The notes under the pieces: generated by a model
What the model was told of the DNA's origin: nothing
Database searches by the model: none
Seen by the model: only the letters and a program-made list of their open reading frames with translations
Translations under genes and position numbers: made by a program
Assembly (NCBI GenBank): GCA_024280335.1
Contig: JAJRQI010000044.1
Span: forward strand, 1 to 37,243
From: Deltaproteobacteria bacterium
GTDB lineage: Bacteria; Desulfobacterota; Desulfuromonadia; Desulfuromonadales; Geopsychrobacteraceae
Direction: 5' to 3'
DNA length: 37,243 nucleotides
Shown here: positions 1 through 9,123 of the stretch, in pieces
Position numbering within the stretch: the first letter of the stretch is position 1
Layout: every line of letters starts with the position of its first letter

Positions 1-22
1 CTTAAAACCAAGATCAAAGACC

Positions 23-90
23 GTCATCCTCGCGAAAGCGGGGATCCACGCGTCTTAAAAACACTGGATTCCCGCCTTCGCGGGAATGAC
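23..90. repeat. Dispersed inverted-repeat element, copy 1
   Basis: Two 26-nt arms (23-48 and 65-90) are imperfect reverse complements separated by 16 nt; arm ends read GTCATCC...GGATCCA and TGGATTCCC...GAATGAC. Almost the same element, in the same orientation, is at 9056-9123. Arms of this kind (GTCATTCCCGCG.../...GCGGGAATCCA) are, from general knowledge, common dispersed intergenic repeats in proteobacteria. Here it lies downstream of the histidine kinase gene and could form a hairpin in its transcript, but no T-run follows, so a terminator role is not shown. The rest of 1-199 holds only a 6-bp palindrome at 117-130. Confidence 0.8.
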
Positions 91-199: not shown

Positions 200-2635
200 T
201 CAAACCACTTGCTTGATGGCATCTTTGAGGACTGAGAGGCTGTAGGGCTTTTGCACGAAACCGGCGAGCCCTTTGCCCGCAAATTTCTGGGCAATTTCCT
301 GCTCGTTGTAGCCACTCGATATGATCACCTTGACGTCTGGTTTGAGCTGTCGCAGTTCACGAAAGCATTGCTCACCGTCCATGTGCGGCATGGTCAGGTC
401 GAGGATGACGAAGGCGATGTCCGGATTGGATACGAAAACTTTTAAAGCCTCTCGGCCATCTTCAGCCGTCAGAGTGGTGAAACCCAACTCCTTCAGCATT
501 TCGGCGCCGATACCGCGGATTGTCTCTTCGTCATCCACCAGCAGGACCCTGCCGCTGCCTTGCCAGTCATCCTGGCGTGATTCATTGTCAAAGATCTCGG
601 CCGGTTTGTCGGATGCGGGGAGCAGGATTTTAAATGTCGTCCCCTTCCCCGGTTCGCTATAGACCTTGATCGCCCCCTTGTGGCCACGCACAATACCGAG
701 CACCGCTGACATGCCGAGACCGCGACCGGTAAATTTTGTCGAAAAAAACGGATCAAACAGCTTTGCCAGGGTCTCCTTTTCCATACCGCAACCGGTATCA
801 GAGATCTCAAGGTAGACGTACAGTCCATCCTTCAGATTTTCATCCAGCCAGACATTCTTCAGATAGCTGCGGTCGCAGTCCATGCAGCCGGTGGTGATGG
901 CAATAATCCCGCTTTTATCGCCGATGGCTTCGGAGGCGTTGATCACCAGGTTCATGATGATCTGGCGGAGTTGGGTGGCATCTGCCTCAACCGACGGGAG
1001 GGAGGAACAGGGGTTAAGCCGTAGTACGGATTTTTTAGAGATCGAAACATCGAGCAGATGCAGCATCTCTTCCATCAGGATATTCAGGTCGATGCTTTCG
1101 ACCACAAACTTCCCCTTGCCGGAATATGCCAGCATCTGCTTGGCAAGGTCGGCAGCTCGCGCTGCGGCCTGCTCGATGCGTCGCAGATTCTCCAATGCCG
1201 GTGATTCTTTTTTGAGCCGCCTCAGCGCCAGCTCGGCATTACCGATGATGGTGGTAAGGATATTATTGAAATCGTGGGCGATCCCTCCAGCAAGGACGCC
1301 GAGACTCTCGAGTTTTTGAGTGTGAAGAATCTGTTTTTCCAAATTGAAACGTTCCTCTTCGGCACGCCTTCGTTCGGTGATGTCACGGACCAAAGCAAGG
1401 TTGTAACCGGTATCGTCAAATTCAAAATAATTGGCCGTGATCTCGACCGGAAAGGTTCGACCGTCCTTGTGGCGATGGATCGATTCAAAGTTGAGCGTCC
1501 CCTGTTTTTTCAGTTGCTGCCAATGCTCAGACCAGCTCTTCGCCGGGAACTCCGGGCCAATCTCCGGAATCGGCATGCTGCTAATCTCTTCTCTGCTATA
1601 ACCCAGGGCACGGCACGACTCTTCATTGACATAATTGAGTCGAGAGCTTTCATCAACCAAATAAACCGCTTCACGGATGTTATCGAGGGCAAAGTTCATT
1701 AGTGCCATGTTTTTTTCGGTCTGTTTGCGCGTGGCGATATCGCGATGGATGGCCAGCAGCATCTGCTGGCCGGCTATCACGAGCATTTTCAGTGAGACCG
1801 CGACTTCCCGCTGGTCACCGGTTTTGGTGCGATGAATAGCTTCGAAGCTGGTCAGACCATCCGGCGGCAACGCCGCTAAAAAAATATCTATTTCTTTTGA
1901 GTGCTCACTGAAATGAATATCTTTGGCCCTGAGAATTGCAAATTCTTCACGAGAATAGCCCAGCAAGGTATGCGCGGCCGTATTGAACTGGAGCGACTTG
2001 AGTTCGGGAACACTCCAGAGCACGATTCCTTCGGGCGACTGTTCAAAGAGGCTGCGATAAAGAACCTCTGATTCCTGCAGGCGCCGATTGGCTTCGACGA
2101 GTCGAGAATAGGTGGAGATCTCGTTGTCGAGCATTAACCCGGCATAGACGAAGAACGGCAGCAGCTCATCAAAAATACTTTTGTCCGATAGCTGCATCCC
2201 CTCCATACAGACCACCCCGATTTTTCGCCCATGTGAGAGCAGGGGATAGATCCAGTTTTCAATCGCTATGGAGGAGCTGCCATCCGGAGCGGGAACCGCC
2301 TTCCCGTGATGGATGATCCGCTGGGGCTTTCCGCTGGCAAGGACCTGATCAACATCCGGATTTTCGGATTCCGTGTAAAGGCACCTTTTGCCGTAGATAT
2401 CGCGGTATTGCCAATCGGCGCCCAGACGAAAGATGAGCACGATGTTATCGCCCCCGACAGTCTGCATCAAAATCTCGAGAATGCACGGCACCAGATTGTC
2501 CAGCCCAGCCACCGAACTTAAGCTGCTCAGCAGACGGTTGACCAGCTCTAAATGTGACTTGCTTTTAGCCATCGCGGACAGGCGCCGTTGCAGCTCTTGG
2601 TTTTCCGCAAGCATTTTTTGTAGATCATTGTTCAT
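200..2635 (-). CDS. GAF-PAS-PAS hybrid histidine kinase with C-terminal receiver
   Basis: An 811-residue sensor kinase with no obvious transmembrane segment, so probably cytoplasmic. Order: short coiled coil (about 1-30), GAF-like domain (about 30-165), PAS (about 188-305), PAS with PAC tail (about 310-425), DHp with H-box GGIAHDFNN (His454), HATPase with N-box LVINASEA, G1 box SDTGCGM and G2 region GRGLGMSA, then a receiver (about 696-808) with DDEE, phospho-acceptor Asp746 in ILDLTMP and Lys796. All catalytic residues needed for autophosphorylation and internal transfer are present. It is the last gene of a four-gene operon and its ATG overlaps the stop of the DUF1638 gene as ATGA. There is no DNA-binding output, so the signal must pass to an unlinked partner. 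The ligand is unknown; context suggests something tied to the corrinoid proteins encoded upstream (inference). Confidence 0.93.
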   Translation of the reverse strand: MNNDLQKMLAENQELQRRLSAMAKSKSHLELVNRLLSSLSSVAGLDNLVPCILEILMQTVGGDNIVLIFRLGADWQYRDIYGKRCLYTESENPDVDQVLASGKPQRIIHHGKAVPAPDGSSSIAIENWIYPLLSHGRKIGVVCMEGMQLSDKSIFDELLPFFVYAGLMLDNEISTYSRLVEANRRLQESEVLYRSLFEQSPEGIVLWSVPELKSLQFNTAAHTLLGYSREEFAILRAKDIHFSEHSKEIDIFLAALPPDGLTSFEAIHRTKTGDQREVAVSLKMLVIAGQQMLLAIHRDIATRKQTEKNMALMNFALDNIREAVYLVDESSRLNYVNEESCRALGYSREEISSMPIPEIGPEFPAKSWSEHWQQLKKQGTLNFESIHRHKDGRTFPVEITANYFEFDDTGYNLALVRDITERRRAEEERFNLEKQILHTQKLESLGVLAGGIAHDFNNILTTIIGNAELALRRLKKESPALENLRRIEQAAARAADLAKQMLAYSGKGKFVVESIDLNILMEEMLHLLDVSISKKSVLRLNPCSSLPSVEADATQLRQIIMNLVINASEAIGDKSGIIAITTGCMDCDRSYLKNVWLDENLKDGLYVYLEISDTGCGMEKETLAKLFDPFFSTKFTGRGLGMSAVLGIVRGHKGAIKVYSEPGKGTTFKILLPASDKPAEIFDNESRQDDWQGSGRVLLVDDEETIRGIGAEMLKELGFTTLTAEDGREALKVFVSNPDIAFVILDLTMPHMDGEQCFRELRQLKPDVKVIISSGYNEQEIAQKFAGKGLAGFVQKPYSLSVLKDAIKQVV

Positions 2636-3219
2636 GGTGTGCCCGCCTTTGCGCGACTGAGGGTTTCGGCGAGGGTTGCTTCAAGGTGTCCGAGCCCGAT
2701 ATCCACCCAGCGTAGTTCAAGGGCAGTCATCTTGCTGACGGCTGCGGCTTCAGCACTAAAATCTCCCGAGCAGGGGGTACGAATCGCCAACAGGTACTTG
2801 TGAGCACCGCAGAAGATGCTGCGCATGATTTCTGGATCTCCCGGCATGATCTCGCCAACAATCTCTTTCCAGTTTAACGCCCAATCCTCAAACAGGAAGA
2901 AGGCGCCCCGTTCCAGTTCGCGGCAGAACAGCTCATGCCCCAGATAGATATCAACACAATTCTGCCCGGGTGTCCTAATGACCCTGACGTTATCCAGAAT
3001 CTGGTCCATGCGTGGATGGCAGGCACCGTAAAACACGATGGCTGATTCCTCGCGATGCCGCTGCAGACATTTCTCCAAACTGTTCTGGAGTTTATCAAAG
3101 TCAACGTGCAGGCCGGAGGGGAGAAATGATAGGCGCGGTTGCCAGTCGTTCTTAGCGACCAGATAGCGGATCTCTTTTTGCAAGATGCCGCAACCGATGA
3201 TGAGATCAGTTCCGCTCAT
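2632..3219 (-). CDS. DUF1638 domain protein
   Basis: A 195-residue soluble protein. I recognise DUF1638 from the opening LIIGCGILQKEI (Cys10), the central FYGACHPRMD (Cys67) and the following NCVDIYLG (Cys88), which matches the family pattern of a YGxC motif followed by an (N/D)C-hydrophobic-LG motif. The biochemical function of this family is not established as far as I know. From memory, members often sit beside corrinoid-dependent methyltransferase genes, as here. Conserved cysteines could bind metal or a thiol cofactor, but that is a guess. It overlaps the MtaA-like gene by 4 nt upstream and the kinase gene by 4 nt downstream (both ATGA), implying linked, roughly equal translation with both. 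Confidence 0.85.
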   Translation of the reverse strand: MSGTDLIIGCGILQKEIRYLVAKNDWQPRLSFLPSGLHVDFDKLQNSLEKCLQRHREESAIVFYGACHPRMDQILDNVRVIRTPGQNCVDIYLGHELFCRELERGAFFLFEDWALNWKEIVGEIMPGDPEIMRSIFCGAHKYLLAIRTPCSGDFSAEAAAVSKMTALELRWVDIGLGHLEATLAETLSRAKAGTP

Positions 3220-4256
3220 AGGGCGTCCGTTGCATAGCGCCCATGTTTGATGGCGGCCTCTACCAGCGCCCTGATATTCTCTTCGGGGATCTGCAACGGC
3301 ATGACCTGGGTGCCGAAGGCGAAGCCACCCTGCTGCTTGCCGACCCGCATGATCCGTGCGACCTCCTGATCAATTTCGGCCGGAGTCCAGTTAATCAATT
3401 TAATATCATTGATCGCACCGACAATCAGTGCCTCGTGACCCAGAATTTGCCTGGCCTCGGCAATATCATCGAACGGATTAAGATAATAGGCACCGATGCC
3501 GGTATTTTTCTTCAGGTCGGCCAGAATCGGGTTGATTCGGCCGCCGCCGTTAAAAAACACCACTCCGGTCGCTCCCGGCCCTTCCAGGTCTTTAATCACC
3601 CAAGGCAGAGCCAGATCACGAAATTTTTGCGGCATGATAAATGTTGCCGAAGCCACCGGGTTGGCATAAATAACCAGATCGGCACCTGCTTCTCGCAGAG
3701 CAACAATCTGCCTGGAACAGAATTGTGAGCACTTTTCTAGCAGCAGGTTGCGTAATCCTGGATCGCCAGTCAGAAACAGATCGAGCCAGGCCCCGATCCC
3801 CATCAGCATGGCCGGCAACGAGAAAGAGGCCGTCATCACGCCGAGTACCGGCCAGCGGCCGGCTGATTCCTGCTTCAGAATGCCGATACAGGTTGCAAGT
3901 TCGTGGAAACGTGGGTGGCAGTGCAGGTCGTCGGGAAGCTGTAGTTTGAGAATGTCCTCAGGCGTGCGAATCACCAGATGGCCGACGTTGGGCGGGCCGT
4001 CATCGGCGTAGAGGATCGTGTGGCAGCCCATGATTTCGGCATCCAACCCCGCATAGAACATCCCCAGCAGGCCGTCATAACCGTATTTCTCGCGCAAGCG
4101 CAACTGCCCTTCGGCCACCAGGTCCCCCCGCGCGTAGTATTCGCGCAGAGAAACCCCTAACTCGGTTGCGCCCTGATCAAGAAGATTGACAATGAGCGGA
4201 ACCCGGTCGGGGGTCCGGCCCTTCATCAGTGCTGCCAGACGTTCCATCCCGGTCAC
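3216..4256 (-). CDS. Uroporphyrinogen decarboxylase/MtaA-fold protein lacking the zinc ligands
   Basis: A 346-residue URO-D superfamily protein; the start GTPDRVP (residues 13-19) and the NPI-L barrel segment fit the MtaA/MtbA branch, which moves methyl groups between a corrinoid protein and a thiol. In active MtaA-type enzymes a zinc is held by a H-x-C motif and a later Cys. Here the first motif reads FFNGGGRINPI, putting Asn236 and Gly238 at the His and Cys positions, and the last reads FGTQVMP, putting Thr316 at the final Cys. All three ligands are therefore replaced. The start is GTG, overlapping the corrinoid gene stop as GTGA, with GGAGG 10 nt upstream; ATG at codon 4 is an alternative. 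Its direct neighbour supplies a corrinoid partner, so binding of that partner without classic zinc chemistry is plausible. True heme-pathway HemE is unlikely given the context and divergence. Confidence 0.87.
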   Translation of the reverse strand: MTGMERLAALMKGRTPDRVPLIVNLLDQGATELGVSLREYYARGDLVAEGQLRLREKYGYDGLLGMFYAGLDAEIMGCHTILYADDGPPNVGHLVIRTPEDILKLQLPDDLHCHPRFHELATCIGILKQESAGRWPVLGVMTASFSLPAMLMGIGAWLDLFLTGDPGLRNLLLEKCSQFCSRQIVALREAGADLVIYANPVASATFIMPQKFRDLALPWVIKDLEGPGATGVVFFNGGGRINPILADLKKNTGIGAYYLNPFDDIAEARQILGHEALIVGAINDIKLINWTPAEIDQEVARIMRVGKQQGGFAFGTQVMPLQIPEENIRALVEAAIKHGRYATDAL

Positions 4257-4933
4257 GATGTGCGTACCTCCTGTACCAGGCGGGAAACGACTTCCGGGGC
4301 TTCAGCCGCACTGTCAGCCCAGGCATCGGCCCCGACCTCGCGGAACATGTTGTCGTGGAAACGGTAAGGAGCACCACCGACGATAATCCGCAACTTTTCT
4401 TCCAGCCCGCGCTCCTGCAACAGCTGGCGAACCCGCTTGGCCCCGCGCTCGCCGGTGGCGGTGTGGACCATCATGGAGGAGATCGCAATGACATCGGCAC
4501 CGACCGCAACCGCCTCGTCGACAAAACGCTCCGGCGCTACGTTGATCCCCAGATCGGTGACCTCGAACATCCTGGCGCGCAGACAGCCGCTGACAATTTT
4601 CTTGCCCAGACCGTGGAAGTCGCCATAACTGGTTCCGATGATCACATGACCACGAATTTCCGGGACAACGGCAAACATCGGCAGCAGCCGGTCGACCACC
4701 TCCTCGGCGATCTGCGCGGCCAGAAAATGCTGAGAAAGAGTGACCAGACTGTCAGAGACCATCCCTCCGATCATCCGCTCCATGCCGGGGATGATAACTT
4801 CAAAGACGATCTTCTCCGGTGTCACCCCACGGTCCAAAGCGTTCTGCACAACTTGCAGCGCCGCAGGCTTATCGGTGTCGAAAAGAGCCTTGATGTAGAC
4901 TTCGAGTGTGAGTTGCGCGATATTATCAGTCAT
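4253..4933 (-). CDS. Corrinoid (B12-binding) protein, MtaC/MtbC-like
   Basis: A 226-residue two-domain corrinoid protein: a helical cap (about 1-88) and a Rossmann-like B12 domain (about 92-215). The cobalt-ligating motif D-x-H-x-x-G is present as DFHGLG (Asp105, His107, Gly110), followed by the Ser-rich ISSMM (about 151-155) and the IIVGGAP turn (Gly186-Gly187) that cradles the nucleotide tail. The family carries methyl groups on cobalt between methyltransferases, or serves as a B12-binding sensor part. I chose the ATG at 4933 because AGGAG lies 9 nt upstream; an in-frame ATG at 4984 would add 17 poorly conserved residues. It is the first gene of the operon and overlaps the MtaA-like gene by 4 nt. 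No MtaB-, MttB- or MtgB-like substrate methyltransferase and no RamA-like activase are encoded in the window. Confidence 0.9.
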   Translation of the reverse strand: MTDNIAQLTLEVYIKALFDTDKPAALQVVQNALDRGVTPEKIVFEVIIPGMERMIGGMVSDSLVTLSQHFLAAQIAEEVVDRLLPMFAVVPEIRGHVIIGTSYGDFHGLGKKIVSGCLRARMFEVTDLGINVAPERFVDEAVAVGADVIAISSMMVHTATGERGAKRVRQLLQERGLEEKLRIIVGGAPYRFHDNMFREVGADAWADSAAEAPEVVSRLVQEVRTS

Positions 4934-9055: not shown

Positions 9056-9123
9056 GTCATCCTCGCGAATGCGGGGATCCACGCCTTATAGAACCTCTGG
9101 ATTCCCGCCTACGCGGGAATGAC
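9056..9123. repeat. Dispersed inverted-repeat element, copy 2
   Basis: Arms at 9056-9081 and 9098-9123 (26 nt each, 16-nt spacer) match copy 1 at 23-90 in length, spacing and orientation. The left arms of the two copies differ at one base (GAAAGCG versus GAATGCG), and both copies share the same mismatches between left and right arm, so they descend from one asymmetric parent. This copy lies downstream of the DUF2520 gene and could act as a weak transcript-end hairpin. The remaining sequence up to 9263 is AT-rich and probably holds the promoter of the kinase gene, but no clear -35/-10 pair stood out. Confidence 0.8.

Follow-up and report, generated by a model that had tools for sequence, protein, structure and literature searches.

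Why is a hybrid histidine kinase encoded in one tightly packed operon with a corrinoid protein and a relative of the methyltransferase MtaA? The question is raised by a minus-strand operon in positions 1 to 37,243 of contig JAJRQI010000044.1 (assembly GCA_024280335.1), from a deltaproteobacterium of the Geopsychrobacteraceae; this whole stretch of 37,243 nucleotides (nt) is called the window here. Its four genes encode, in order, a corrinoid protein, a protein of the uroporphyrinogen decarboxylase (URO-D) fold, a DUF1638 protein and the kinase (Table 1). We consider, with a probability of about 0.6, that the operon specifies a soluble multi-protein sensor built from corrinoid methyltransferase parts, having a cytosolic corrinoid receptor and with DUF1638 transmitting to kinase or cyclic di-GMP (c-di-GMP) outputs. 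That the module is an input module for signalling is the firmer claim and, judged from sequence comparison, is very probably correct.

Conservation of the four-gene order

Genomes of the window's class/order and of its phylum were sampled for DUF1638 (Pfam PF07796), which was present in 44 of 146 genomes of the class, 8 of 136 of the order and 94 of 395 of the phylum; Spirochaetota were sampled using a signalling profile. Loci were annotated on stop-to-stop frames with profiles built from the window proteins. The class/order set comprises 63 DUF1638 loci, the window's own locus not being counted, and the phylum set comprises 97 of the 125 loci outside the class, every second of the 54 top-scoring loci having been kept and one near-duplicate dropped. 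Row L028, whose loci are both covered by L033, was dropped, as were L001-L004 and L007, which duplicate the window or longer loci.

A corrinoid protein, a URO-D protein, DUF1638 and a histidine-kinase ATPase domain are encoded on the same strand in 49 of the 63 class/order loci; a fiftieth locus has GGDEF as its output, and the remaining 13 fall outside the pattern. The 50 signalling-linked loci are spread over 39 genomes, ten of which carry two or three copies of the module, a pattern seen in receptor families. The order can be found in the named records JAQTZV010000004.1 (Desulfuromonadaceae) and MGZJ01000020.1 (Geobacteraceae GWC2_53_11), to judge from which the sampled genomes are probably Desulfuromonadia and related bacteria. 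Across the phylum set the complete kinase order occurs in two of the 97 loci (L075 and L081), and DUF1638 is fused to other signalling domains in two further ones (L074 and L140). Among Spirochaetota, the signalling profile matched in 19 of 344 sampled genomes, and corrinoid, URO-D and DUF1638 genes accompany a kinase gene in eight of the 344 (L188-L194 and L197; the L191 kinase was detected only at a looser threshold); in a ninth genome (G585) the operon is apparently split across contig ends. The sequence-only reading had left it to a genome search to decide whether the order is peculiar to this strain; by these counts, it is not.

Domain fusions and phylogeny of DUF1638

The window DUF1638 protein scores 99.5 bits against a Pfam gathering cut-off of 27 and belongs to PF07796. 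DUF1638 and a kinase ATPase domain share a single open reading frame (ORF) in 15 of the 63 class/order loci, with a receiver as well in 11 of them, and Pfam confirmed HisKA in all three such fusions scanned (L048, L056 and L059). In the Spirochaetota loci L193, L194 and L197 the fusion is to HisKA_2 kinases, in L070 it is to GGDEF and in L074 to GAF-PAS-PAS-HD_5, while in L140 DUF1638 is followed by PAS in one ORF. Fusion to several kinds of output marks an input domain, and DUF1638, being swapped among kinase (HisKA and HisKA_2), GGDEF and HD (HD_5) outputs, has that signature. These fusions add to the support for the sequence-only proposal that the corrinoid protein acts as receptor and the kinase as transducer; that proposal had the signal pass through the GAF/PAS region, and here it needs amending, as the likely transmitter is DUF1638 and not GAF/PAS alone.

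A 538-amino-acid (aa) ORF of locus L025 (genome G004, of the window's genus) consists of URO-D and DUF1638, with a PAS hybrid kinase encoded next to it. In two other Spirochaetota loci (L185 and L206), Hydant_A_N and Hydantoinase_A domains are joined to DUF1638, which hints at a possible joint role of DUF1638 and an ATPase in reactivating corrinoids.

A tree of 162 DUF1638 rows was made by a quick method that gave a long-branch warning touching the fused clade; it contains no alphaproteobacterial rows, three matches shorter than 120 aa (two in L121, one in L141) were excluded, and the label "module?" was assigned by hand for L008, L080 and L082. On this tree the label "no kinase" requires 3 changes, versus a mean of 48.4 after shuffling, and the two signalling clades hold a single no-kinase row, L054. 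The fused rows occupy separate places: a 16-row clade, L048 within the window's clade, and L074.

Conserved residues of DUF1638 and of the kinase

All 59 signalling rows have cysteines C10, C67 and C88 of DUF1638; among 103 other rows these are found in 99, 102 and 102, respectively. At position 38, 43 of the signalling rows have His and 16 have Cys, whereas 102 of the 103 others have His there. In an alignment of 36 diverse DUF1638 rows without the fused clade, the invariant positions are exactly C10, H38, G65, C67 and C88. Such alternation of His and Cys where a site is fixed in other respects would be typical of metal ligands, and C10, H38, C67 and C88 are perhaps ligands of a metal or an iron-sulfur (Fe-S) cluster.

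The window kinase has the HisKA phospho-His, the ATP-binding residues and the receiver Asp of a hybrid sensor kinase; the phospho-His is kept in 53 of 53 rows and the receiver Asp in 49 of 49. Its description as a GAF/PAS kinase stands for PAS, which Pfam recognises, and is weaker than first stated for GAF. No Pfam GAF domain was found in its N-terminus at E 0.001, and the AlphaFold model of that region is of low confidence (pLDDT 58), but among the matches listed by Foldseek for this model the best and many others are GAF domains, beside chemoreceptor domains. The GAF-like region was found 24 times, and 23 of these start no more than 700 nt after DUF1638. Further kinases flank the module in L006 and L007, and the HisKA/HATPase parts of the upstream ones resemble the module kinase by eye, which suggests local duplication.

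Corrinoid and URO-D proteins

The window corrinoid protein has a B12-binding cap and a B12-binding domain in which the DxHxxG motif is intact (D105-x-H107-x-x-G110). Of 57 module corrinoid proteins, 56 have the motif, and the exception (L075) comes from a short ORF of 90 aa. On NCBIfam models, the window corrinoid protein scores 108.2 bits for TIGR02370 (methyltransferase corrinoid protein; cut-off 215.3), and the URO-D protein scores 94.2 bits on TIGR01463 (MtaA/CmuA; cut-off 235.4); by that test both are thus relatives, not members, of those families.

The URO-D protein has lost the zinc site of MtaA. Aligned to Protein Data Bank (PDB) entry 4ay7, MtaA LHICG corresponds to FFNGGG in the window protein and PGCGIAP to FGTQVMP, and the columns of H, C and C, which we take to be the zinc ligands, read F, G and V. 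The triad was counted in 61 DUF1638 loci with a URO-D gene no more than 700 nt upstream: it is in none of 55 signalling-linked URO-Ds, and none of the three URO-Ds that have it is linked to a signalling output. L008, L080 and L148 have neither the triad nor a signalling link in this count; for L008 and L080 the end of a contig is reached or close by. The motif H-x-C-G is in no module URO-D of the nine Spirochaetota genomes. The replacements at the zinc site differ by subclade (FNGGG, YCGSA, LHHTGG and THLASG...QHGEIP). Locus L076 (genome G073) has a tandem DUF1638 pair and, on the same stretch, URO-D genes, of which two read H-C-C and a third F-C-C. The window genome has two URO-D genes, the second of which, to judge by its score, is probably HemE-like.

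Catabolic partners and neighbouring genes

Catabolic corrinoid systems would be expected to include a substrate methyltransferase, and the sequence-only reading had called for one to be sought elsewhere in this genome. The window genome and the 39 class/order module genomes, 40 in all, were surveyed for the MTTB (PF06253) and MtaB (PF12176) families, though not for MtmB or MtbB, and neither was found in any of the 40; Methanosarcina acetivorans, the control, was positive for the search. An MtaB/MttB-type gene together with a working zinc MtaA had been named as the sign of plain catabolism; neither was seen, and with both genes in 0 of 40 genomes and the zinc triad in 0 of 55 URO-Ds we reject plain catabolism as the leading reading.

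The window was also said to lack a reductive activase, but a RACo-type activase is encoded elsewhere in the genome (G000:C1). RACo_C_ter was matched in 32 of the 40 module genomes, with a single match in 22 of them, the window genome included. Near the module itself such genes are rare: a RACo-like gene occurs in 1 of 56 signalling stretches (a number that includes the overlapping L028 and L033) versus 21 of 106 other DUF1638 stretches (Fisher p 0.0012).

Recurrent neighbours of the module are mostly kinases and receivers, with a methyl-accepting chemotaxis protein family in eight loci, periplasmic-binding proteins and PocR in a few loci, and proteins without a Pfam match. PocR domains are encoded in 3 of the 56 signalling stretches and none of the 106 others; in L008 (Spirochaetaceae) a PocR kinase gene is directly upstream of the corrinoid gene. 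Module arrays in L018 and L024 include a PocR-GAF-PAS sensor, Phosphonate-bd and NMT1 periplasmic-binding proteins or kinases, and a REC-SpoIIE protein.

Proposed mechanism and points against it

As we picture the sensor, the corrinoid protein and the zinc-less URO-D would form the receptor, with URO-D providing a ligand or substrate pocket above the cobalt (Co). The corrinoid would change state, by methylation, by its axial ligand or in Co oxidation state; DUF1638, which is related to a protein required for B12-dependent methionine synthesis in Phaeobacter, would dock on the corrinoid protein, read that state via its Cys3-His or Cys4 metal or Fe-S site, and relay it to the kinase; in relatives the recipient would be the kinase, GGDEF or HD output fused to it. 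We would put even odds on the state of the corrinoid being what is sensed, and somewhat less on participation of the DUF1638 metal site. Equally tentative is the most specific form of the proposal: cytosolic chemoreceptors of a new class, whose enzyme-derived corrinoid and URO-D proteins sense the cobalt state (methyl-Co, Co(I) or Co(II)) and whose DUF1638, by its Cys/His metal or Fe-S site, is a universal transmitter to histidine kinases, diguanylate cyclases and HD phosphodiesterases. The stimulus may be a methyl donor, corrinoid supply or redox poise.

Several points weigh against a sensor of this kind. The signalling role rests on comparative evidence; the physical complex, the direction of the signal, the presence and chemistry of the corrinoid, the metal site, the ligand and the target of the kinase are inferred. 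RACo in 32 of 40 module genomes leaves room for catalytic cycling of the corrinoid, and in L035 a RACo-like gene is just upstream of the module. A histidine kept near the old zinc site in some module URO-Ds (LHHTGG and THLASG...QHGEIP) may serve another metal or chemistry. The neighbours looked at have no recognisable transporter or enzyme in common and indicate no ligand. In L008 the sole kinase on the sequenced piece is upstream, and another contig fragment of that genome suggests a downstream kinase too; kinases are also near DUF1638 in four module-free loci (L009, L085, L095 and L100). L082, a long-branch DUF1638 beside the window's clade, is accompanied by corrinoid and RACo-like genes, with no URO-D or kinase found. 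As for DUF1638 structure, the Cys that replaces H38 was displaced by one residue in a second alignment, of selected rows; an AlphaFold model made from four rows was too poor to be used (pLDDT 47.6); and a profile search against solved structures returned two matches, the better with E 0.082, which were taken as chance.

Alternative explanations

The module might instead monitor how well the cell is supplied with corrinoid, or the redox poise of its corrinoid (B12 status, oxygen or reducing power), and no external methyl compound, with URO-D as a structural cap. Loss of the zinc thiol-activating site of URO-D would suit this, as would the nearly invariant Cys/His set of DUF1638, the Hydantoinase_A fusions of other Spirochaetota proteins and, from the portions of PMC5764234 available, a Phaeobacter DUF1638 that acts with RamA-type reactivation. 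The subclade-specific URO-D signatures and the several copies in ten genomes, however, fit different ligands better than one redox signal, and we think this explanation rather unlikely.

Less probable still is that the operon is a catabolic or biosynthetic corrinoid methyltransferase operon carrying its own regulator, the kinase sensing the substrate independently and switching the operon on. There is precedent: regulation of this kind is proposed for the mec dichloromethane cassette, which has a PocR kinase, MecA, beside the corrinoid protein MecB and methyltransferases (PMC9768040, in the part seen), and the accessible text of PMC6944256 describes methyltransferase-associated sensor kinases in Methanosarcina. 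The PocR domains of the signalling stretches, including that of the kinase directly upstream in L008, point the same way. Nevertheless, the zinc triad is in none of the 55 signalling-linked URO-Ds, MttB and MtaB were found in none of the 40 genomes surveyed, a RACo-like gene is in just one of the 56 signalling stretches, and a merely co-regulated enzyme is not expected to be fused to HisKA, HisKA_2, GGDEF and HD outputs. Moreover, the window kinase ends in a receiver, and none of the four genes encodes a DNA-binding regulator.

A cobalamin photoreceptor of the CarH or photocobilin type feeding the kinase is very improbable. PDB sequence matches of the corrinoid protein do include chains named "Cobalamin-binding protein" and "GGDEF domain-containing protein" (8j2w-8j2y), which we take to be photoreceptors. 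That B12-binding proteins serve as light sensors is described in the excerpts seen of PMC10979010 and PMC11796333, and from W131, E141 and H142 of CarH, named in the latter, the pattern W-x9-EH was built, this being the one motif of that paper applied. It is in none of 57 module corrinoid proteins, because of which light is unlikely as the stimulus, and neither URO-D nor DUF1638 is named in the portions of the B12-photoreceptor literature searched.

A chance neighbourhood in kinase-rich genomes, for which it may be said that 27 of 305 background ORFs (of at least 150 aa, without a profile match, on the same class stretches) are also followed on their own strand by a HATPase no more than 3.5 kb downstream, can be dismissed, as it is already contradicted by the fusions and has to face 49 linked loci of 63, 15 of them in one reading frame and many others joined through a stop/start overlap, as well as a second phylum with this order.

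Comparison with known systems

The sensor proposed here has parts in common with several known systems. It shares with the MtaC/MtaA/MtbC-type systems for methanol and methylamines (4ay7 being a methylcobalamin:coenzyme M methyltransferase) a DxHxxG corrinoid protein and, as its partner, a URO-D-fold protein from the MtaA/CmuA superfamily, but it differs from them in being without the zinc triad or a genomic MttB or MtaB, in scoring below the family cut-offs and in being tied to signalling proteins. AerR is a B12 sensor with a B12-binding protein as its input. CarH and the photocobilins likewise take their signal through such a protein, according to the sections consulted, whereas the module, apart from its want of W-x9-EH, has URO-D and DUF1638 as partners and a kinase, GGDEF or HD as output, which sets it apart from AerR as well.

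In the mec cassette, too, a kinase gene accompanies those for a corrinoid protein and a member of the MtaA/CmuA family, but there are several methyltransferases and a separate response regulator, and no DUF1638 is named in the part of PMC9768040 seen. MsmS and RdmS of Methanosarcina are redox-linked kinases tied to methyl metabolism; unlike the module, they are described as sensing through haem (MsmS) or thiols (RdmS) and as regulators of methyl sulfide genes, and the available text of PMC6944256 mentions no corrinoid-protein receptor. As far as these sources were read, neither mec, MsmS/RdmS nor the B12 photoreceptors use a methyltransferase-derived corrinoid/URO-D pair with DUF1638 as a kinase input.

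DUF1638 of the split methionine synthase and of glycine betaine demethylation (Phaeobacter and Ruegeria) belongs to the same Pfam family and, in the passages seen, is described with corrinoid proteins; there, however, it stands with metabolic genes, and in the module with signalling genes. Those passages of PMC5764234 report that Phaeobacter DUF1638 mutants are rescued by methionine, with no specific function proposed by the authors, and that in alphaproteobacteria DUF1638 is co-distributed with a RamA-like activase; the finding is taken up in the part of PMC12478193 seen. The Phaeobacter data and the Spirochaetota Hydantoinase_A fusions thus give independent support to DUF1638 working with corrinoid proteins. 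No description of a corrinoid/URO-D/DUF1638 signalling module was found in the open-access PMC texts searched, so far as these were available, and we regard it as an undescribed input module for the known two-component and c-di-GMP modes of sensing.

The operon in the window

The 4-nt overlaps that had been noticed at the three junctions of the operon are borne out by the minus-strand ORFs (Table 1). Across 56 loci the spacing at the first junction is -4 in 42, -1 in 10 and +4 in 4, as counted by a script that takes the start codon nearest the stop and thus favours small gaps. A strong hairpin repeat, with arms like GATTCCCGCCTTCGCGGGAATGAC, is present in two copies, at window positions 20-90 and 9056-9123, presumably of the repetitive extragenic palindromic (REP) kind. 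The copy at 20-90 (-49 kcal/mol, z -7.25) is just past the end of the kinase gene.

Table 1. Genes, junctions and a kinase subregion of the operon, in order of transcription (window coordinates).
Feature	Position	Strand	Basis
Corrinoid-binding protein, 226 aa	4253..4933	-	Pfam PF02607/PF02310: B12-binding cap (B12-binding_2) and B12-binding
GTGA stop/start overlap, corrinoid protein to URO-D	4253..4256	-	Sequence
URO-D-fold protein, MtaA/CmuA superfamily, 346 aa, GTG start	3216..4256	-	Pfam PF01208, E 2.9e-51
ATGA stop/start overlap, URO-D to DUF1638	3216..3219	-	Sequence
DUF1638 protein, 195 aa	2632..3219	-	Pfam PF07796, E 2.4e-28
ATGA stop/start overlap, DUF1638 to kinase	2632..2635	-	Sequence
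Hybrid histidine kinase, 811 aa: N-terminal GAF-like region, two PAS, HisKA, HATPase_c, C-terminal receiver (Response_reg)	200..2635	-	Pfam
GAF-like N-terminal kinase region, aa 1-193	2057..2635	-	AlphaFold/Foldseek likeness and recurrence after DUF1638

Implications

The DUF1638 fusions make the sensor model directly testable, since what is called for is a single-chain DUF1638 kinase and two small soluble proteins. Genes annotated "MtaA/CmuA methyltransferase" or "corrinoid protein" are not necessarily a sign of methylotrophy. If the model is true, a likely role would be assigned to part of the DUF1638 family, and the corrinoid machinery of methyltransferases would have been reused in anaerobes to provide two-component and c-di-GMP signalling with a receptor.

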